DNA from: Candidatus Kapaibacterium sp.
GTDB lineage: Bacteria > Bacteroidota > Ignavibacteria > Kapaibacteriales > Kapaibacteriaceae
Assembly: GCA_018882895.1 (NCBI GenBank)
Contig: VERF01000018.1
Coordinates: 1 to 38,270 of the forward strand
DNA: 38,270 bases
Direction: 5' to 3'
The position numbers were made by a program, and so were the translations under genes. Under the pieces are notes generated by a model. The model did not search any database. It was not told where the DNA came from and worked only from the letters and a program-made list of their open reading frames with translations. This document shows, one piece after another, positions 8,711 to 37,953 of the stretch. Every line of letters begins with the position of its first letter. Positions within the stretch are counted from its first letter, which is position 1.

Positions 8711-10510
8711 TCAGTCCAGTGATAGTACGGCGTGAAATGCTTCCTGCGGGATCTCGACCTTGCCCACCTGCTTCATGCGCTTCTTGCCTTCCTTTTGCTT
8801 CTCGATCAGCTTGCGCTTTCGGGAGATGTCGCCCCCGTAACACTTGGCCAAAACGTTCTTGCGCATGGCACTGATGGATTCACGGGCGATGATCTTCGAA
8901 CCGATGGCGGCCTGGATGGCCACCTCGAACATCTGACGTGGGATCAGCTCGCGAAGCTTTGAGCAGAGCCGCTTGCCCCATTCATGCGCCTTCTGACGGT
9001 GTACGATCGACGACAGAGCGTCTACCTGTTCGCCATTGAGCAGAATGTCCATGCGGACCAACTGTCCGGGCTTGTAATCGGCATACTCGTAATCAAGAGA
9101 TGCATAGCCCCTTGTGTTGCTCTTGAGCTTATCGTAGAAGTCGAATACCACTTCGGCCAGGGGCAGCTCAAATGTCATGTCCACACGGTCGGCCGACAAA
9201 TATGACTGTCCCATCATCGTGCCGCGGCGGTCCATGCAAAGCTTCATGATCGTCCCGACATATTCCGACGGGGCGATGATCTGCGCGCGGATATACGGCT
9301 CGAGGATCTCACTGATAAGGGTCGGGTTTGGCAGCTGCGCCGGATTGTCGACCCATAAGATCTCATCGCGTGTGGTCACCACCTGATAGCGCACGTTCGG
9401 AACCGTGGTGACGATGGTCTGGTTGAACTCACGCTCGAGGCGTTCCTGGACGATCTCCATGTGCAGAAGACCAAGGAAGCCGCAGCGGAAACCGAAGCCG
9501 AGTGCACTTGAGGACTCCGGCTCGAAGGTGATGGCCGAGTCGTTGAGAGACAGCTTGCCGAGTGCTTCGCGCAGATCCTCAAAGTCGTCACTGTCGGCCG
9601 GATAGATGCCGCTGAACACCATCGGCTTGACCTCGCGGAAGCCTTCGATGGGCTGCGTCGTTGGGTTGCCGGCAAGCGTCACCGTGTCACCAACCTTTGA
9701 ATCCTGGAGCTTGCGGATCGCTGCCGTGAAGTAGCCCACATTGCCGGCCGAGAGTTCGCCTGTGCGTTGACGTTGCATAAAGAGCACGCCCACTTCATCA
9801 AGCTCGTAGGTCTGCCCCGTTGCCATGAATAGGATCTTGTCCTTCTCCCGCATCGTTCCGTCGATCACGCGCACATAGACGATCACGCCGCGATAGGCAT
9901 CGAATACGGAGTCGTAGATCAGCGCTCTCAGCGGGGCCTTGGGATCTCCCTTGGGAGGGGGCACGCGTTCAACAACAGCCTCAAGGATCTCATCAATCCC
10001 GATGCCTGCCTTGGCCGATGCAAGGATCATATCGTCCTCCTTGCAACCGATAAGGTCCATCACCTGCTGTTTGACACTTTCGATCGTGGTCACGGCACTT
10101 GGAAGATCGATCTTGTTGATGACCGGGATGATCTCCAGCCCCTGCTCAATCGCCATGAACAAGTTTGAGATCGTCTGGGCTTCCACTCCTTGCGTGGCGT
10201 CGACAACCAGCAGAGCCCCTTCGCAAGCACTCAGAGAGCGAGAGACCTCATACGAGAAGTCAACGTGTCCCGGCGTGTCGATCAGGTTCAGCTTGTAGTT
10301 CTTGCCGGCCTTGTCCACGTAATCCATCTGGATGGCGTGAAGCTTGATCGTGATGCCACGCTCCTGCTCGAGCGGATTGTCATCAAGGATCTGGTTCATT
10401 GTCATCTCGCGCGCCGAAACCCGGCCTGTTCGCTCCAACAGCCGGTCAGCCAGGGTGGACTTCCCGTGGTCAATGTGCGCGATGATGCAAAAGTTGCGGT
10501 AGTTCTGCAT
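8711..10510 (-). CDS. lepA: Elongation factor 4 (back-translocating GTPase)
   Basis: 599 residues, standard for LepA/EF4, a ribosomal GTPase that acts on stalled or mistranslocated ribosomes. G1 is [16 protein letters not shown] near residue 10, switch and G3 follow ([26 protein letters not shown]), G4 is NKIDLPSA and G5 is [11 protein letters not shown]. The C-terminal domain has the LepA-specific [21 protein letters not shown] and ends in the basic [20 protein letters not shown] signature. It leads the lepA-lepB-lepB-hemW run. A heptamer array stands directly upstream; the first heptamers run into a TAATTTG element 7 bp before the ATG. Confidence 0.97.
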
Positions 10511-10517
10511 AAGACCG

Positions 10518-10749
10518 GCAAATTACGGATTACGGATTACGGATTACGGATTACCGAGGACGGATTACGAATTACGGATTACGGATTACGGATTACGAAT
10601 TACGGATTACGAATCAGAACGACAGTAAATCCGTCCTTCGTCCTCCGTCCTCCGTCCTCCGTCCTCCGTAATCCGTAATCCGTAATCCGTAATCCGTAAT
10701 CCGTCCTTCGTCCTCCGTAATCCGTAATCCGTCCTCCGTCCTCCGTTCT
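10518..10749. repeat. Inverted heptanucleotide arrays (GGATTAC / GTAATCC)
   Basis: The left arm (10521-10618) is about 13 units, mainly GGATTAC with GAATTAC and CGAGGAC variants. A short spacer (about 10619-10625) follows. The right arm (10626-10749) is about 17 units in reverse orientation, GTAATCC mixed with GTCCTCC and GTCCTTC. Together they could extrude a long cruciform. The array fills almost the entire gap between the divergent lepA and NTF2-fold genes. Units on one strand fit DRRDKAC like the other arrays in the window. Short open frames across it are repeat translations, not genes. Confidence 0.95.
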
Positions 10750-10756
10750 CTTTTTA

Positions 10757-13364: not shown

Positions 13365-13370
13365 TTTCAG

Positions 13371-13530
13371 TCTCTCGTCACTCGTCACTCGTCACTCGTC
13401 ACTCGTCACTCGTCACTCGTCACTCGTCACTCGTCACTCGTCACTCGTCACTCGTCACTCGTCTCTCGTCACTCGTCACTCGTCACTCGTCACTCGTCAC
13501 TCGTCACTCGTCACTCGTCACTCGTCTCTG
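13371..13530. repeat. Heptanucleotide array, TCGTCAC/TCGTCTC units
   Basis: About 22 tandem 7-bp units, nearly all TCGTCAC with a few TCGTCTC (complement GTGACGA, that is GAGTGAC/GAGAGAC). The array spans the complete gap between the proS stop and the TolB-like start. It is almost homogeneous, so it is recently expanded or actively homogenised. The rightward open frame with repeated RHSSLVT is only a translation of it. Confidence 0.97.
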
Positions 13531-24798: not shown

Positions 24799-26169
24799 TC
24801 AGATGCCGAGCTTGGAACCTACGCGCCATACGTCACCGGCCCCCATTGTCAGGAGGATGTCCCCGGGCCTGAGGAGGTCTTTTAGCGTCTCGGACACATC
24901 TTCGAGGCGCTCAGCATAGTGAACGTGACGGTGTCCGGCATCGCGTGCCGCATCGGCAATGATCCGCCCACTGACGCCTTCGATGGGCTGTTCGCGAGCA
25001 GGATACACGTCCATCAGGACGATTACATCGGCATTGTCAAACGAGGTTGCGAACTCCTTATAGAAGTCACGCGTCCTGCTATAGGTATGGGGCTGAAAGA
25101 CTGCCACAATGCGCCGATTCCACCCGTTTCTGGCTGCCTCGAGCGTTGCCTGGATCTCTGTGGGGTGGTGAGCATAGTCATCGATCACCAGCACACCGTC
25201 GGGCGTTTCGCCCTTGATCTCGAACCGGCGGTACACGCCGCCGAATTCGGCCAGGGCCTGACGGATCACGTCGGGCGCTACTGCGCATTGCAGCGCCATA
25301 CCGCATGCGGCAAGGGAGTTGAGCACATTGTGCTCACCGGGTACGTTGAGCACGATTCTGCCAAGGGGCTCACCACGGTAGGTCAGGTCGTAGGCACTGC
25401 TTTGCTCGCTGTAGGAGATGTTGCTGGCCCGCACATCGCATTGTGGAGTGGTGCCATAGGTGATGATCACGCGCTTGATATCAGGCATCACGTCGCGCAC
25501 GCCCGGATCATCCAGACACACCAGGGCGGCTCCGTAGAATGGTACCTTGTTGGCAAACTCCGTAAAGGCCCCCTTAATGTCATCAAGGTCGCTGTAGATG
25601 TCCAGATGATCGGCCTCGATATTCGTCACCACGGCAATGGTGGGCAGCAGCTGCAGGAACGAGCGGTCATACTCGTCGGCCTCAAGAACCACCCAGTCGC
25701 CCGCACCCAGTCGCGCATTCGAACCGCCGAGTCCGGTGAGCCGCCCACCTACGATCACGGTCGGGTCCAGGCCCGCCTTCATCATTACCAGCCCGCACAT
25801 CGACGTCGTGGTGGTCTTCCCATGCGTCCCTGCGATGGCCAGCGTGTACTTCAGACGCGAAACTTCGGAGAGCATCTCAGCGCGGCGGATCACGGGAATC
25901 TTGCGCTCCAACGCAGCCAACGTTTCGGGATTCTCCGTTGGACGCACTGCCGAGGAGTACACCACTACCTCCGCCCCTTCGATGTTCGATGCTGCATGAC
26001 CCTTGTAGATCACCGCTCCCATCGAAGCTAAATGCTCCGTGGTGGCACTCTCGGCAAGGTCCGAGCCGCTCACTGCAAATCCCTGCGACAGAAGGATCTC
26101 GGCAATTCCGCTCATACCCGAGCCACCGATGCCGACAAAGTGGATGCGTGAGACTGAGGAAAAGGTCAT
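24799..26169 (-). CDS. murC: UDP-N-acetylmuramate--L-alanine ligase
   Basis: 456 residues, normal for MurC, which adds L-alanine to UDP-MurNAc in peptidoglycan synthesis. The N-terminal Rossmann loop is HFVGIGGSGMSGIAEIL (10-26). The ATP loop is GTHGKTTTT (114-122). EADEYDRSFLQL and NIEADHLD are Mur-ligase signatures, and RRFEIKGE and DDYAHHPTEI mark the C-terminal domain. It starts 3 bp after a TATCTTCG octamer. It is isolated from other division-and-cell-wall genes. A four-helix-bundle cassette borders its promoter. Confidence 0.97.
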   Translation of the reverse strand: MTFSSVSRIHFVGIGGSGMSGIAEILLSQGFAVSGSDLAESATTEHLASMGAVIYKGHAASNIEGAEVVVYSSAVRPTENPETLAALERKIPVIRRAEMLSEVSRLKYTLAIAGTHGKTTTTSMCGLVMMKAGLDPTVIVGGRLTGLGGSNARLGAGDWVVLEADEYDRSFLQLLPTIAVVTNIEADHLDIYSDLDDIKGAFTEFANKVPFYGAALVCLDDPGVRDVMPDIKRVIITYGTTPQCDVRASNISYSEQSSAYDLTYRGEPLGRIVLNVPGEHNVLNSLAACGMALQCAVAPDVIRQALAEFGGVYRRFEIKGETPDGVLVIDDYAHHPTEIQATLEAARNGWNRRIVAVFQPHTYSRTRDFYKEFATSFDNADVIVLMDVYPAREQPIEGVSGRIIADAARDAGHRHVHYAERLEDVSETLKDLLRPGDILLTMGAGDVWRVGSKLGI

Positions 26170-26183: not shown

Positions 26184-26295
26184 ACTAGTTACTAGTTACT
26201 AGTTACTAGTTACTAGTTACTAGTTACTAGTTACTAGTTACTAGTTACGAGGTACGAGGTACGAGGTATGAGGTACGAGGTACGAGGTACGAGGT
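26184..26295. repeat. Heptamer arrays ACTAGTT x9 and ACGAGGT x7
   Basis: Two different 7-bp units lie head to tail in the same register; cyclically they are TAGTTAC and GAGGTAC. Within each block units are identical except one ATGAGGT. Confidence 0.97.
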
Positions 26296-26338
26296 GCAGT
26301 GCATGTCACGTTTTGGGTGGGGAGCGCACTAAGCATGT

Positions 26339-26740
26339 ATGAACTCAAAAGACATCATCATGAAATCGCGGGAGGACGGGCCGCTGGCCTACGAATCCAT
26401 AATGCTTGGGCGCCTGGTCCGAAAGCTGTGCCATGCGCTTGCGAAGGGTTACCCGTTAGACCGTCCGCTCCTGTCTCAACTGCTGCGTTGCTCCACTTCA
26501 GTTGGAGCAAACATTCGCGAAGCGAAGTATGCCGAGTCACGAAAGGACTTCATACACAAGTTGAAAGTCGCTGAGAAAGAGCTCGCCGAAACCTACTACT
26601 GGATAGGCTTGCTCGAGAGTGAGCCCTCCGTTCTGCCGCCGGAAATCCAAGAGATTGAGGTGTGTGCACAGCATGTCCTCAAGATGCTCAGCCGCACCAT
26701 TGCCAAACTGAGAGAAAACAGCGCAACCCCTAGTAACTAG
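26339..26740 (+). CDS. Four-helix bundle protein (S23/bAvd-like)
   Basis: 133 residues of the family first seen as intervening-sequence proteins in 23S rRNA genes and related to the Avd accessory protein of diversity-generating retroelements. The signature CSTSVGANIREAKYAESRKDFIHKLKVAEKELAETYYWIGLLE is spread over helices 2 and 3; helix 1 is YESIMLGRLVRKLCHALAKG and helix 4 VCAQHVLKMLSRTIAKLRE. These proteins form basic pentameric bundles that bind nucleic acid. The start is ATG 26339; ATG 26360 is possible. The last codons and the TAG stop come from the right heptamer array. No rRNA gene or reverse transcriptase is nearby, so it is an orphan member. Confidence 0.88.
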   Translation: MNSKDIIMKSREDGPLAYESIMLGRLVRKLCHALAKGYPLDRPLLSQLLRCSTSVGANIREAKYAESRKDFIHKLKVAEKELAETYYWIGLLESEPSVLPPEIQEIEVCAQHVLKMLSRTIAKLRENSATPSN

Positions 26741-26779
26741 TAACTAGTAACTAGTAACTAGTAACTAGTAACTAGTAAC
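26731..26779. repeat. Heptamer array TAGTAAC x7
   Basis: Seven perfect TAGTAAC units, the reverse complement of the left outer array of the cassette. The unit contains stop codons on both strands, and because 7 is not a multiple of 3 all six frames are closed. It supplies the stop of the four-helix gene (26738-26740) and of the convergent nitrilase gene (26772-26774). Confidence 0.97.
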
Positions 26780-27557
26780 TACCAACTCTTCTGTCTCCAA
26801 ACAGATCATTCACCGCATTGATCGCCTTATTGCGCGTGTCTGCCGGTGTGATCTCGGCAACAACAACGGCATCATCGGTGGCGGATGCGTCGGCAAGCAC
26901 CGAGCCGTTGTAAGAATAGATGGCCGTTTGACCGTTGAACGAGACATCTTCGCCGGCGTTGTGATCCGTTCCTGTGCGGTTGGCCACCGCCAGATATACC
27001 TTGTTCTCGAGTGCGCGCACCGGCATGGCCATGCGCCAGACGTGTGTGATGAGGTTGGATGGGCAGGCGATCAGGTCCGCCCCCTTCAATGCAAGTGCGC
27101 GGGCGCTCTCGGGGAAGCGCCAGTCATAACAGATCATCACGCCCAGGTTGCAGTCCAAGTGCGGCAGGTGGGTGACGAAGAACCCCGTATCGCCCGATGT
27201 AAAGCCGAGCGTCTCCTTGTAAAAAAGATGCGTCTTACGATACACAAGGGGGCTCGGTAGCCCCTTGCCGGCGATCAATGCGGAGTTGAAGTACGTGACG
27301 GCGGCCTCGGCGAAGCCGCACACGACCACTTTGCCGGCCTGTTCGGCGGCGGTGATGATCTGCGAGGTGTGCGGACCACCCAGGGGTTCAGCGATGCGGG
27401 CGACCTCTTCGGGGCCGATATGCAGGTAGCCCGAGGTGGCCAACTCCGGAAAGACGATCACATCGGCTTCGATGCGGTGGATCTCGTCGACGATGCGGCG
27501 TGTGTTGACGTCGAGGTCACCAAAGCAGGGGGCGAATTGGACGCAGGCGACGCGCAT
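26772..27557 (-). CDS. Carbon-nitrogen hydrolase (nitrilase superfamily)
   Basis: 261 residues from ATG 27557, chosen over a TTG at 27560 because it overlaps the PAP2 stop (TGATG) and starts with MRVACVQFAP. The catalytic triad is visible: Glu38 in VIVFPELATSGY, Lys108 in VYRKTHLFY, Cys143 in VMICYDWRFPE. Members hydrolyse amides or nitriles, for example omega-amidase, N-carbamoyl or deaminated glutathione substrates; the specificity is open. The last residues (GSY) and stop lie in the heptamer array, so the original C-terminus may have been trimmed or replaced. It carries four GCCCCYT words. Confidence 0.88.
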   Translation of the reverse strand: MRVACVQFAPCFGDLDVNTRRIVDEIHRIEADVIVFPELATSGYLHIGPEEVARIAEPLGGPHTSQIITAAEQAGKVVVCGFAEAAVTYFNSALIAGKGLPSPLVYRKTHLFYKETLGFTSGDTGFFVTHLPHLDCNLGVMICYDWRFPESARALALKGADLIACPSNLITHVWRMAMPVRALENKVYLAVANRTGTDHNAGEDVSFNGQTAIYSYNGSVLADASATDDAVVVAEITPADTRNKAINAVNDLFGDRRVGSY

Positions 27558-28270
27558 CAAAACGAGAACGAAATGGCCAGAAGAGGGGTGCTACCGCGCA
27601 TGCCAACGCCGAGGCTGCCGGCCGAAGGGGCGCCGGGCAGAAATGGTTCGGTGACATCGAAGACCTCGGTGCGAAGAAGGTGCACGCCATAGGCCACGCC
27701 GGCGCCCAGGGCATAACCGGCAAGCACGTCGCTGAGGTAGTGTACGCCGAGATTCATCCGCGCGAAGCCCGTCCACAGGGCATAGCCGACCGATGGGACG
27801 ATGACGTACCACTCGGGGTAGCAGAGACTGAGCGAGGTGGCCAAGGCGGCTGCTCCGGCGGAATGTCCGGATGGGAAGGACGACCCTAGCGGATCGCCCG
27901 CAGGGTGACGATTGGTGATCAGCCCGGGAAATGACTGATACGGTCGATCCCGGTCAAAGATCGCCTTGGCGGCAAACACTGCGGCGTAGGTCGCGCCCAT
28001 GGTCAATCCGATTTGCACGCCTGACTCGGCGGCGCGGCGCTGATTCGGACCCTCTTCCATCAGAAAGCTGCCGCCATAGAGCAAGGCCGGAACGCCCACG
28101 GCCAGCGGGAGCAGAGCATCGGAGACGAAGATCGAAGCCGAGGTCACGCTTGCCGACTCGATGTGATTGAGGTCATAGACGATCCGTCCCTCAAACGGGA
28201 TGCCTTCCCCTTCCTGAGCACCGAGCCAGAAGGAGCCGAGAACCATCACGATGAGTACCGAACGCGTCAT
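27557..28270 (-). CDS. PAP2-family membrane-associated phosphatase
   Basis: 237 residues from ATG 28270, preferred over ATG 28273 because it keeps the 4-bp distance to the promoter octamer seen elsewhere. A signal-like N-terminus (MTRSVLIVMVLGSFWLGAQ) is followed by hydrophobic helices and the three PAP2 motifs: KAIFDRDRP (KX6RP), PSGHSAGAAA, and ARMNLGVHYLSDVLAG. Family members dephosphorylate lipids such as phosphatidate or undecaprenyl pyrophosphate on the periplasmic side. The C-terminal FLPGAPSAGSLGVGMRGSTPLLAISFSF in pieces looks like outer-membrane beta strands. It is coupled to the nitrilase gene and transcribed divergently from asd across 36 bp. Confidence 0.85.
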   Translation of the reverse strand: MTRSVLIVMVLGSFWLGAQEGEGIPFEGRIVYDLNHIESASVTSASIFVSDALLPLAVGVPALLYGGSFLMEEGPNQRRAAESGVQIGLTMGATYAAVFAAKAIFDRDRPYQSFPGLITNRHPAGDPLGSSFPSGHSAGAAALATSLSLCYPEWYVIVPSVGYALWTGFARMNLGVHYLSDVLAGYALGAGVAYGVHLLRTEVFDVTEPFLPGAPSAGSLGVGMRGSTPLLAISFSF

Positions 28271-30706: not shown

Positions 30707-31956
30707 TAACGATCCTTACCAACATCGCATCGCTCGTGACCGTTCGGTCAGGCGGAGCCCCTTATCTGACCGGTGATAAGATGCGCGATGTGGGGGAGAT
30801 CGCCGGCGGATGCGTTGTGCACGATGAGCACTCGATCCTCTGGGTGGGTGCCAGCGCAGACATGCCTCAGGAGTATCGTCACGGGGCGACGCTGGTGGAC
30901 TGTACGGGGCGCACCGTGATGCCGGGCTTTGTGGACAGTCACACGCACATGGTCTTTGCCGGATCTCGGGCGCACGAATTTGCACGGCGTCTGGCCGGTG
31001 CCACCTACGCAGAGATAGCTGCGGAAGGGGGCGGAATACTCACCACCATGAAGGCCGTGCGCAGCGCAACGGTGGATGAACTTGTCGAGGTGGGACGTCG
31101 GCTGGTGGACTCAGCGGTGCGCCATGGCACGACGACCATCGAGATCAAGAGCGGCTACGGGCTGGACCTCGACAGTGAGCTTCGTCTGCTCGAGGCTGCC
31201 GGACGTCTCAAGCGGGAGGGTCGAGCTCATATTCACGTTACGTTCCTTGGTGCCCATGCCGTGCCCCCTGAATGGCGTCACGACCCCGAGGCATACGTCA
31301 ACATCGTTATCAACGACATGCTTCCAGCCGTCGCCGAGCAGGGCATAGCCGAATTCTGCGACGTCTTTACCGACCGGGGCTTCTTCGACCGTGAGCAGAG
31401 CACTCGCATTCTGCGTGCGGCGCGTGAGCAGGGCCTCAAGCTAAAGGTCCACGCTGACGAGATCGCCCTTGTTGGTGCCTCCGACATGGCCGCCGAGCTT
31501 GGCTGCATCAGTGCCGACCATCTCGAGCACAGCACCATCACAGAGGTCCGCAAGCTCCGCGACGCAGGCGTCGTCTGCACCCTGCTTCCCGGCACGGCCT
31601 ATACCCTGCGTCTGCCATTTCCTGATGCGCGGATGATGATCAGTGAGGGGGCTATCGTGGCCCTTGCCACCGACTGTAATCCCGGTTCATGCTTTACCGA
31701 GAGCATGCAGACCATCCTCTCGCTTGCCTGCATAAACATGGGCATGAGCATCGAGGAGGCCATCGTTGCGGCAACCATCAATGGTGCGGCGGCGCTGGGC
31801 ATCTCACATCTCACCGGCTCGATCGAGTCCGGCAAACGCCCCGACCTCGTTATCTATGACACACCGTCGTACAAAGACGTGGTGTATCATTTTGGGGTGA
31901 ATCATGTGAATGAGACGTTCGTCGCCCCGGCGCAGGCCGGGGCCCATGTGTTTTAA
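30703..31956 (+). CDS. hutI: Imidazolonepropionase with repeat-derived C-terminus
   Basis: 417 residues. HutI opens the imidazolone ring in histidine degradation. Metal ligands start with His80 and His82 in VDSHTHMVFAGSR; GGGILTTMKAVR, EIKSGYGLDL, HVTFLGAHAVPPE, KVHADEIALVGA and ALATDCNPGS are all typical of this amidohydrolase. The start overlaps the previous stop (ATGA). The final residues after FGVNHVNET read FVAPAQAGAHVF, which is the translation of the first type 2 palindrome, and the stop also lies in the repeat. The normal last few residues have therefore been replaced; the active site is untouched. No hutU, hutH or hutG is nearby. Confidence 0.93.
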   Translation: MITILTNIASLVTVRSGGAPYLTGDKMRDVGEIAGGCVVHDEHSILWVGASADMPQEYRHGATLVDCTGRTVMPGFVDSHTHMVFAGSRAHEFARRLAGATYAEIAAEGGGILTTMKAVRSATVDELVEVGRRLVDSAVRHGTTTIEIKSGYGLDLDSELRLLEAAGRLKREGRAHIHVTFLGAHAVPPEWRHDPEAYVNIVINDMLPAVAEQGIAEFCDVFTDRGFFDREQSTRILRAAREQGLKLKVHADEIALVGASDMAAELGCISADHLEHSTITEVRKLRDAGVVCTLLPGTAYTLRLPFPDARMMISEGAIVALATDCNPGSCFTESMQTILSLACINMGMSIEEAIVAATINGAAALGISHLTGSIESGKRPDLVIYDTPSYKDVVYHFGVNHVNETFVAPAQAGAHVF

Positions 31957-32188
31957 TGGGGCATGAAGATGGATCCCGGCCTTCGCCGGGATGACGGGCC
32001 TTCGCCGGGATGACGGGCCTTCGCCGGGATGACGGAACATCGTCGCCCCGGCGCAGGCCGGGGCCCATGTGTTTTAATGGGGCATGAAGATGGATCCCGG
32101 CCTTCGCCGGGATGACGGGCCTTCGCCGGGATGACGGGCCTTCGCCGGGATGACGGAATATCGTCGCCCCGGCGCAGGCCGGGGCCCA
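31921..32188. repeat. 121-bp composite REP-like direct repeats, left cluster
   Basis: Two full 121-bp units (from 31921 and 32042) and a partial third (32163-32188). Each unit has a type 2 palindrome (GCCCCGGC, loop GCAG, GCCGGGGC), a linker with TGTGTTTTAATGGGGCATG, a type 1 palindrome (ATCCCGGC, loop CTTC, GCCGGGAT) and two further 19-bp copies of CTTCGCCGGGATGACGGGC. It starts within the hutI 3' end. Confidence 0.95.
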
Positions 32189-32209
32189 GGATTACCCCTT
32201 CGTTATGAT

Positions 32210-32512
32210 TCACTGTTTAGCAATCTCAGCCCACAGATCTGACCAGCTTGGATTGCGTTCTTCAATTAGGCGAATCTTCCAAGCTCGCTTCCATTCTTTA
32301 ATGGCCTTCTCACGCCGAATTGCCTCTGCCATCGTGGCGTGCAATTCAAAGTAGACCAGCAGCTTAACATCGTACTTTGAAGTGAATCCCGGTAGGAGAT
32401 GATTCTTATGCTGCCATACTCGTTGGAGCAAGTTTGACGTCACCCCGACATATAGGGTGCCGTTTCGGCGCGATGCCAAGATGTAAACAGCGGGTTGAAG
32501 GAAACGTCGCAT
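32210..32512 (-). CDS. Small GIY-YIG endonuclease
   Basis: 100 residues forming one GIY-YIG domain. The motif pair is VYILASRRNGTLYVGVTSN (VYI and YVG standing for GIY and YIG), with the catalytic arginine in LLQRVWQHKN and the metal-binding glutamate in FELHATMAEAIRREKAIKEW. C-terminal helix: WKIRLIEERNPSWSDLW. The ATG at 32512 is chosen because the motif begins eight residues later; the longer open frame upstream is a translation of the repeats (PAKAGIH, RHPGEG). Relatives are annotated as UvrC-like or UPF0213 nucleases, with no proven cellular role. It lies leftward between hutI and cysS inside the REP-like clusters. Confidence 0.9.
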   Translation of the reverse strand: MRRFLQPAVYILASRRNGTLYVGVTSNLLQRVWQHKNHLLPGFTSKYDVKLLVYFELHATMAEAIRREKAIKEWKRAWKIRLIEERNPSWSDLWAEIAKQ

Positions 32513-32577
32513 AACAATACCTGATTTCACTTGTTCCCACTCTAGAGCAATATTCTTCGGTGAGCGTGACAGTTGCG

Positions 32578-32836
32578 CATGGATCCCGGCCTTCGCCGGG
32601 ATGACGGGCCTTCGCCGGGATGACGGGCCTTCGCCGGGATGACGGGCCTTCGCCGGGATGACGGAATATCGTCGCCCCGGCGCAGGCCGGGGCCCATGTG
32701 TTTTAATGGGGCATGAAGATGGATCCCGGCCTTCGCCGGGATGACGGGCCTTCGCCGGGATGACGGGCCTTCGCCGGGATGACGGGCCTTCGCCGGGATG
32801 ACGGAACACCGTTGCCCCGGCGCAGGCCGGGGCCCA
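32578..32836. repeat. 140-bp composite REP-like direct repeats, right cluster
   Basis: It is built from the same parts as the left cluster, with one extra 19-bp subunit per unit, so the type 2 palindromes are 140 bp apart (32671 and 32811). The last one reads GTTGCCCC where the others have GTCGCCCC. The cluster ends 5 bp before the cysS promoter octamer. Confidence 0.95.
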
Positions 32837-35088: not shown

Positions 35089-35116
35089 TCCTCCGCAATC
35101 AGTAATCCGTAATCCT
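35089..35116. repeat. Short heptamer run (GTAATCC type)
   Basis: About four units: TCCTCCG, CAATCAG, TAATCCG, TAATCCT in one register, of the same kind as the array at 10518-10749. It codes for the C-terminal RITDY and the stop of the leftward gene. Confidence 0.75.
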
Positions 35117-36769
35117 CCCCAGCCCCTTCCTCAGCATCGCTTCCGTTTCCGGCAGGGGATTGCGCGCAAGCCCTGTTTCGAAGTCGGCAGAGGCTTCGGC
35201 GGGACGCCCGGTTCGCAGATAGCTGATGCCGCGGTTGAGATATGCGTCGGCTGAGGCGTTGCCGAGGTTGATGGCGCTGGTATAGGCGCTGATCGATTCG
35301 TCGATCTTGCCCATCATGCCGGCCAGCAGGCCGAGTCGCTCATAGGCGTCGGTACGGGGCGAGGGGTAGGTGAGCAGCGAGCGAAGATCTTCGTAGGCTG
35401 CCTCGGCGTTGCCTGACTCAAACGAGTGGATGCCTCTGTAGATGTAAATGGGCAGGTAGCCATCGGAGAGGTTCTTGCGACGTATCTCGGCAGGACTTCC
35501 AGTGTTGCCGGAACGCTCTAAAATGCTCGTCCAGAGAGTCTCGGTATCGTGCCACATGCCAACCTGACGGAAGGTGAGCACTCCTTGGGTGACTGTAAAC
35601 ACCGTTATGACACCCCATGCGAGCGATCTCCATTTGCGCATCAACATTGCAACGCCGGAAAGTGCAACGCACAACATTCCGACCATCGGGATGTAGGTAT
35701 ACCGGTCGGCCATGATCACCTGTCCAACAGAAATGATATGCAAGACAAGGATGATGGTGATGGTGTACCAGGCGAGGCCAAGAGACGAGAGACGAGAGAC
35801 AAGAGACGAGAGACGAGAGACAAGAGACGCCGTCTCGCCGGTTGATGTCCAAAACCGTCCCACCACCAACACCAAAACGAACACCGGCATTGCCGCGAAA
35901 GCATAATAGTACCCCGGCATTGCAAATGCGCCACCAACGTGCGGGTAGGGATAGAAGGCGTTCAGGGAAAGGGGCCAGATGAACTTGATCCAGTACATCG
36001 CGAAGCCGTAGGAGGCAATGCCGATTCTCTCTGCGATGCTGAACGTAGCCAAGTCGGCAACTGCGCCGTCGGCGGTTTGAAGGCGGAGGGTGATGAGCCC
36101 CATCACAATAGAGACAACCACGAAGGGGAGTTTCTCAACCACACGGCGCACGGTGAAGCCGCCACCGTGCCAGAGGTCGAGCATCACGAGAACCAGCGGA
36201 AGCACGATCGCCGTCGGCTTTGAGAGGCACGAAAGCACGAATGCTACAAAGCAGAGAGCCAGGGCACTCCTGCGTGGTGCGTCTAGATAGCGCAGATAAG
36301 CAATGATCGACGTCACAAAAAATACTCCGAAGAGTACATCTTTACGTCCAGAGATCCACGCCACGCTCTCTACGTGAAGCGGATGAATGGCAAACCACAG
36401 TGCTCCCAGTTCGGGCAGAAGGTCGCCCCCTATCAGACGTCTGAGCAGCAGTAGGACCAGGATTGAGGTGACGATGTGCAGGGTGAGGTTCACAAGACCA
36501 AATGCTCGTGCATTGCGACCCCACAGTTTGTAGTCGATCGCCAGCGACAGTACCGTTAGCGGATGATAGTTGCTGGCCACCGATGTAGAGGGTGTGAAGA
36601 TCTCCATCACGGTGGCCGACGACATGTTCTTCACCAGCCGCTGATTCGTTACGTACGCATTGTCATCATAGGCCGTGAACTGCTTCGTGGAGTCGAACAG
36701 CTTCCAGTAGGCCATGATCGTGGCAAGTGCGATCAGCAAGGGGGCCAGTTTAAGCAGACGTGTTTTCAT
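35099..36769 (-). CDS. TMTC-like multispanning membrane protein with TPR repeats
   Basis: 556 residues from ATG 36769 (MKTRLLKLAPLLIALATIMAYW). The N-terminal two thirds has about ten membrane helices and the loop AYDDNAYVTNQRLVKN, HPLTVLSLAIDYKLWG and HPLHVESVAWISGRKDVLF, as in the bacterial relatives of eukaryotic TMTC O-mannosyltransferases. The last 140 residues are TPR units (AYEDLRSLLTYPSPRTDAYERLGLLAGMMG in part; YLNRGISYLRTGRPAEASADF). A role in protein or lipid glycosylation is likely from the family. Seven AAGAGAC/GAGAGAC heptamers (35780-35828) are inserted in frame as SLVSRLSSLVSRLSSL in a loop between helices. The C-terminus RITDY is also heptamer-derived. Confidence 0.78.
   Translation of the reverse strand: MKTRLLKLAPLLIALATIMAYWKLFDSTKQFTAYDDNAYVTNQRLVKNMSSATVMEIFTPSTSVASNYHPLTVLSLAIDYKLWGRNARAFGLVNLTLHIVTSILVLLLLRRLIGGDLLPELGALWFAIHPLHVESVAWISGRKDVLFGVFFVTSIIAYLRYLDAPRRSALALCFVAFVLSCLSKPTAIVLPLVLVMLDLWHGGGFTVRRVVEKLPFVVVSIVMGLITLRLQTADGAVADLATFSIAERIGIASYGFAMYWIKFIWPLSLNAFYPYPHVGGAFAMPGYYYAFAAMPVFVLVLVVGRFWTSTGETASLVSRLSSLVSRLSSLGLAWYTITIILVLHIISVGQVIMADRYTYIPMVGMLCVALSGVAMLMRKWRSLAWGVITVFTVTQGVLTFRQVGMWHDTETLWTSILERSGNTGSPAEIRRKNLSDGYLPIYIYRGIHSFESGNAEAAYEDLRSLLTYPSPRTDAYERLGLLAGMMGKIDESISAYTSAINLGNASADAYLNRGISYLRTGRPAEASADFETGLARNPLPETEAMLRKGLGRITDY
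35780..35828. repeat. Heptamer array inside a coding region (RAGAGAC x7)
   Basis: Order of units: AAGAGAC, GAGAGAC, GAGAGAC, then the same three again, then AAGAGAC, so a 21-bp superperiod is visible. In the leftward reading frame this gives a 7-residue protein repeat. A gain or loss of one unit would shift the frame. Confidence 0.95.
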
Positions 36770-36806
36770 GCGTGAGAAATTACAAGATGCCCGCAAACAC
36801 TCGGCG

Positions 36807-37883: not shown

Positions 37884-37953
37884 AAGTGACGAGTGACGAG
37901 TGACAAGTGACAAGTGACGAGTGACGAGTGACGAGTGACGCACAACGCCTAAC
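37884..37953. repeat. Heptamer array RAGTGAC x8 plus two decayed units
   Basis: AAGTGAC and GAGTGAC units from 37884 to 37939, then GCACAAC and GCCTAAC in the same register. It is the reverse orientation of the array at 13371-13530. The decayed units form the first bases of the 91-bp repeat. Confidence 0.92.

Follow-up and report, generated by a model that had tools for sequence, protein, structure and literature searches.

Inverted arrays of short repeats around S23 genes in several bacterial phyla suggest that gene and repeat form one spreading unit

Genes of the S23/four-helix-bundle family are recurrently found between two inverted arrays of the same short repeat unit, and copies of that repeat lacking the gene occur elsewhere in the same genomes. 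At least seven bacterial phyla show this layout, which suggests that the S23 gene and its arm repeat form one spreading unit. We consider it probable that gene and repeat are the two parts of a selfish repeat element, resembling REPIN/RAYT systems without their nuclease and related to the intervening sequences (IVS) of 23S rRNA. To our knowledge, no maker is known for the heptamer repeats of bacteria (cyanobacterial STRR, Xanthomonas GGGAATC, and the arrays of Beggiatoaceae). Similarly, we know of no function or mobility partner for S23/IVP proteins, though one occurs in rRNA intervening sequences. An element of this kind would give these two old puzzles one testable common cause, and it may explain the heptamer repeats of many bacteria. 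No earlier report of an association between S23 genes and arrays was found in the open-access literature, subscription journals and preprints lying outside that search.

The cassette described here is located in a window of 38,270 nucleotides (the whole stretch of DNA analyzed), which is part of a Candidatus Kapaibacterium draft genome, G000, of 2,565,285 bases in 131 contigs. It separates murC (24799–26169, minus strand) from a nitrilase-like (CN_hydrolase) gene (26772–27560, minus strand), which precedes murC in the ancestral operon. The outer 5′ arm (26184–26248, plus strand) is a tandem array of 9.3 copies of TAGTTAC/ACTAGTT with 100% identity, followed by an inner array of a related unit, TACGAGG (26246–26295, plus strand; 7.1 copies, 95% matches), which is present on the left side only and has no right-hand counterpart. 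A leader running from the arm to the start codon (26296–26338, plus strand), read directly in the sequence, contains GTCACGTTTTG, which also occurs in a related genome, G008, in the leader of its murC-proximal S23 gene. The S23 gene itself (26339–26740, plus strand) encodes 133 amino acids and is followed by the 3′ arm (26730–26781, plus strand), 7.4 copies of CTAGTAA with 100% identity, the reverse complement of the 5′ arm.

The original prediction that TAGTTAC units on the left are answered by their exact reverse complement on the right is borne out by a perfect 52-nt inverted repeat (26186–26237 versus 26730–26781, 492 nt apart). This inverted match measures 52 bp, compared with a median of 8 bp in controls, and exact runs in the window are found at period 7 (11 runs, 477 bp), with none at periods 4–6 and 8–12; the arrays are therefore not a product of chance. 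The 3′ arm supplies the last S23 codons and contains the stop codons of both S23 and the nitrilase gene. The end of a convergent nitrilase gene had been described as rewritten by the cassette; this applies to its last 2–3 codons and the stop, which are array-derived, and to nothing beyond them, while the gene converges with S23 and runs in the same direction as murC. GCCCCYT words are absent from the cassette, as had been stated, which is weak evidence because only about 1.2 would be expected. An Rfam search of the window and a search of plasmid DNA with the whole cassette gave no match.

The predicted protein matches PF05635 (60.3 bits with a curated cut-off of 33.8, E 2.4e-16), its sole Pfam match, and TIGR02436 (69.4 bits, curated cut-off 24). 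Its modeled structure (pLDDT 87.6) is closest to 2rld (Foldseek E 1.2e-5) and 2gsc, and then to 4dwl, the accessory protein Avd of diversity-generating retroelements (DGRs), with a query-based TM-score to Avd (4dwl, 8ub7) of ~0.6–0.66. This agrees with the kinship to bAvd that had been proposed from the sequence, and PF05635 was also tied to Avd in one paper (PMC10053308). PF05635 genes are patchily distributed, so that, at the family threshold, genomes of the same genus carry 3–7 copies or none.

The 23S rRNA IVS of Coxiella burnetii contains an S23p ORF and is bounded by inverted repeats of 28 bp, which RNase III cuts; tandem GACAGAT heptamers of variable copy number precede the ORF, and its authors call the IVS selfish (PMC4990558). 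The cassettes described here share this layout, with terminal inverted repeats around an S23 ORF that occupies their loop and with heptamers just before the ORF. In contrast to the IVS, they are located between or within protein genes, outside 23S rRNA, their arms are mostly tandem arrays with matching solo arrays dispersed in the genome, and their ORF is under purifying selection (dN/dS ~0.05–0.24 among S23 proteins of near relatives). It is conceivable, though at a low probability, that the cassette is itself an IVS-type RNA element, whose transcript would form a panhandle cut by RNase III, with S23 accompanying the RNA and spread depending on host or phage reverse transcription. The Coxiella anatomy, the folding of the window cassette as RNA (−251 kcal/mol, z −8.5), and the membership of the Avd fold in a reverse-transcriptase RNP would fit such an origin, whereas the position of this cassette outside 23S rRNA would not. 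Moreover, the RVT_1 profile has no match in six genomes with several S23 genes each (G000, G003, G005, G008, G009, and G012). The absence of a reverse transcriptase noted earlier thus extends from the surroundings of the cassette to the whole of G000, which also distinguishes it from DGRs, whose Avd (4dwl, 8ub7) has the four-helix fold in common with S23.

Comparison of the murC site among relatives reveals how the cassette relates to its surroundings. The genes for PAP2, nitrilase, and MurC are co-directional in most readable family members, and murC follows the nitrilase gene after 2–23 bp in G010, G012, G013, G014, G016–G019, and G022. Since the two genes nearly abut in most family genomes examined, the cassette has split an operon; the earlier placement of the cassette in front of a murC promoter is unsupported. 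The gap measures 170 bp in G001 and 182 bp in G003, where it holds an inverted AGTTAC hairpin without a gene, and 605 bp in G000, where the S23 gene is present. Three states of the site, namely empty, hairpin, and hairpin with gene, are thus seen directly, and the empty sites that the original prediction proposed to look for exist in many relatives. Other genomes add further contents: an S23 gene accompanied by ACTGGGT arrays upstream of murC in G005 and G008, ~630 bp of other sequence in G002, G004, and G007, and a short array of a different unit in G020.

Matched arms are not peculiar to this locus. Inverted arms of at least 14 bp were found at 41–70% of about 150 S23 genes in three sets and are rare at other genes, in line with the predicted enrichment of heptamers near such genes. 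The first set comprised 61 stretches with 63 S23 genes. Here, the median of the longest exact inverted match between 250-bp flanks was 17 bp at S23 genes and 8 bp at 653 neighbor genes, and this match reached at least 14 bp at 28 of 51 S23 genes versus 5 of the 653 others (Fisher p 4e-31). Among 80 named loci from Bacteroidota, Chlorobi, Clostridia, Cloacimonadota, Elusimicrobium, and Anaerolineales, matches of at least 13 bp occurred at 50 of 80 S23 genes and 17 of 327 others, several of these 17 being neighbors that share one array and AT-rich DNA lifting the background. On plasmids, mostly cyanobacterial, the corresponding counts of matched inverted arms were 16/20 and 0/83. The 13–14 bp thresholds were picked after the first set and then used on the others, the broad S23 set was gathered by similarity to one S23 branch, and genes were called simply as the longest ORFs. 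Fragmented drafts, with contigs that break at arrays, make up most of the Kapabacteria genomes, and some S23 genes have no detectable arms.

The match between the arms is specific to each element. In the first set of a three-set test, the left arm was matched by its own right arm in 34 of 56 cases and by a swapped one in 2 of 224 (0.9%); the values were 33/80 versus 10/320 (3.1%) in the second set and 14/20 versus 0/80 (0%) in the third. Where period-7 arrays stood on both sides, their units were exactly reverse-complementary in 16 of 17 elements. The Kapabacteria set showed no enrichment of direct repeats between the flanks (both groups had a median of 8), so the effect resides in the inverted arms.

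The arm unit is mostly 7 bp long, and the original description of the arrays as heptamers therefore holds for most arms but not for all, as units of 8, 10, 11, 12, and 13 bp occur in some Kapabacteria copies. Elements share a polarity, with G exceeding C in the 5′ arm of 66 elements and the reverse in 10 (p 3e-11). The unit tracks the S23 clade, and close S23 relatives in different genomes share it. When 40 genomes were tested, AGTTACT was confined to G000, G001, and G003, GTCACTC to G000, G005, G009, and G012, and the 8-mer TGTGCTAA to G001 and G003, which are exactly the genomes whose S23 arms bear these units. GGTTTTG, expected in G000, G005, and G009, was also present in G008, which has a same-clade S23, and at one place in G032. 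Three of the four units thus occur only in genomes that also have the cognate S23, and many of their arrays are solo. Presence as such is partly circular evidence because the arms themselves count as matches, and the informative part of this comparison consists of the absences and of the places away from S23 genes. In unselected stretches of G000, 8 period-7 clusters were counted in 84 kb (9.6 per 100 kb), and none in 277 kb of four congeners without a PF05635 match, three of which contain distant, arm-less S23-like ORFs according to a more sensitive search.

Two genomes deserve separate mention. The GGTTTTG place in G032 (contig C3, 17699–17740) is a single array, and the known S23 genes of G032 carry other units. 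G006 had been considered as an S23-free genome, but it was rejected and dropped from the null set after the sensitive search gave an S23 piece at a contig edge. This piece has a GTAATTG arm, mismatched to the GAGTGCC hairpin of G006 (L297, L303), and no S23 matching the GAGTGCC unit was found in that genome, which counts against a perfect one-S23-one-unit rule.

The gene controls, the unit-by-genome test, and the arm exchange already contradict a purely passive association, in which S23 would be ordinary cargo in recombination-prone intergenic sites and heptamers would stem from replication slippage. This account can point to arrays away from S23 genes and to the over-representation of heptameric repeats in many bacteria, including the STRR/SSR of Nostoc, Calothrix, and Xanthomonas (PMC4692102). 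We nevertheless find it barely credible, as left and right units match exactly within elements and not between them, control genes in the same DNA rarely have comparable arms, the polarity is shared, and three of four units are exclusive to genomes with a cognate S23. The STRR/SSR repeats resemble the present arrays in being dispersed, intergenic, and 7 bp in unit length, with many inverted pairs in Xanthomonas; unlike the present work, which tested the link on cyanobacterial plasmids, PMC4692102 does not mention an S23 gene. X. campestris encodes the S23 protein XCC0516, whose structure is 2gsc.

In the REPIN/RAYT (TnpA-REP) system, as in the elements described here, one protein gene is flanked by, and specific to, a dispersed palindromic repeat family with non-autonomous hairpin copies, and here, too, there is one repeat family per protein lineage. 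The differences concern the protein, which is a helical bundle with PF05635 alone and no Y1 HUH nuclease domain, and the ends, which are 7-bp tandem arrays instead of 20–40-bp REPs. The gene-less hairpins look like REPINs (PMC3116915), as would be expected if an unrelated Y1 (HUH) transposase encoded elsewhere in the genome moved the repeats in trans, with S23 as an accessory. Such an arrangement is very improbable in our view, given that the murC-site cassette neither contains nor adjoins a transposase, as the original prediction had noted, and that the occurrence of one S23 lineage per unit argues for specificity carried by S23.

Copies without the gene are present within the window as well, none of them assigned to a strand. 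An inverted ATTACGG hairpin (10522–10750) has the unit of the G000 S23 gene on contig C79; its site is empty in G002, G004, and G007 and is occupied by an ACTGATG hairpin (the unit of one G009 S23 gene) in G009 and by a GAGTGCC hairpin in G006. A solo array of GTCACTC (13370–13526) has the unit of the G000 S23 gene on contig C126, and another of AGTGACG (37885–37940) is the reverse complement of the GTCACTC family. G009 shares the site of the C126 gene; in G005, a close relative, this site lacks S23 and holds an array of the 8-mer CGTACTTC, and an S23 related to the C126 copy is located elsewhere in G005. Cassettes are homologous and their flanks are not in the pairs G000_C126/G005_C83 and G003_C52/G001_C24, and at one locus (G003_C29:60423 versus G001_C150:28492) the cassette is reversed relative to its flanks. 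Site contents thus differ between sister species, and a change of unit at a site may represent re-insertion or in-place rewriting. Neither a target-site duplication nor a defined cut site was visible in the junction comparisons, where array ends blur the boundary. Separately, a hairpin unit, TAATAGCCCCGGGCCTTGGCCCGGGG, lies within or beside arrays in L077 (~9400–9500) and in L295 (the G009 site of the array at 13370–13526), and it forms a tandem repeat in G009.

The solo arrays could also be read as retained binding sites and not as products of mobility, with S23 acting as a nucleic-acid-binding regulator of its own gene, through the arms, and of a regulon. The intergenic position of solo arrays, a promoter-like TAnnTTTG element adjoining array1, the unit cognacy, which suits a binding protein, and the regulatory role proposed for the Beggiatoaceae heptamer arrays, reported without S23 (PMC4679880), speak for this reading. 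We regard it as unlikely, since orthologous sites are empty or hold other units in sister species and are therefore not conserved as a regulon; moreover, it leaves unexplained both the inward-facing arms and the insertions inside methylase frames.

In those insertions, S23 cassettes are nested in DNA-methylase ORFs (L116 9416–9775, L124 9467–9835, and L131 9578–9982), with the S23 gene read in frame +1 and the host frame open throughout; in L124 and L131, the cassette is located shortly before methylase motif I. For two of the three interrupted methylases, a homologue from a Chloroflexota plasmid has the residues on either side of the cassette adjacent to each other (507/515, compared with 501/664 and 611/779), which identifies the cassette as an insertion of ~155–160 codons that keeps the frame. 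The insertions in G024 and G040 may represent one shared event. The arm-poor, high-scoring S23 genes of G014, G024, and G040 were considered as candidates for location in 23S rRNA and rejected, as they gave no Rfam match and lie in methylase genes instead.

On plasmids, S23 genes occupy junctions within operons of the cas, DISARM-like, nrd, and conjugation types. Those at cas and DISARM-like junctions were noted in L260, L264, L268, L269, L270, and L272–L275, from cyanobacterial and Chloroflexota plasmids, and S23 may for this reason be mistaken for a defence component. One paper lists the 23S rRNA IVP among CRISPR-linked proteins (PMC10910872). If the selfish-element reading is true, the “four-helix-bundle” genes in CRISPR, DISARM-like, and other operons would be insertions and not components of these systems.

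The original suggestion that the S23 protein handles the arrays holds as an association; that the protein makes, binds, or transposes them we infer from co-occurrence, motif cognacy, and locus comparison. In the proposed selfish element, the autonomous form would be an S23 gene that makes up the loop between two arrays, both facing inward and built from a short unit, usually of 7 bp. Hairpins without the gene, or lone arrays, that repeat this unit at other places in the genome would be the non-autonomous forms. An S23 oligomer would recognize the unit that belongs to it, probably in the form of a folded ssDNA or RNA hairpin. The arrays would be inserted and lengthened by the replication or repair machinery of the host, which is invoked because the element has neither a nuclease nor a polymerase. 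The concerted identity of the arms could result from hairpin-templated copying or from recombination between them. The one-S23-one-unit rule opens the way to direct binding and genetic tests. More tentatively, and with somewhat less than even confidence, nuclease-free selfish elements of at least seven phyla could form a class in which a small helical-bundle protein sets the unit of the arrays and, by way of host replication, drives their gain, growth, and turnover; this class would be the source of cyanobacterial and other heptamers, and S23-bearing rRNA IVS would be members that landed in 23S rRNA.

Additionally, three other repeat regions were observed in the window. An AGAGACG array (35779–35829), for which a 21-bp period is also perfect, lies within a long ORF (35099–36796, minus strand). 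A different repeat type is present at 31919–32836, where 121- and 140-bp tandem repeats contain the 19-mers GGCCTTCGCCGGGATGACG. Finally, the contig end (37938–38270) carries a 91-bp tandem repeat with CCCACGGCTTCAGCCGTGGG, a REP-like palindrome.
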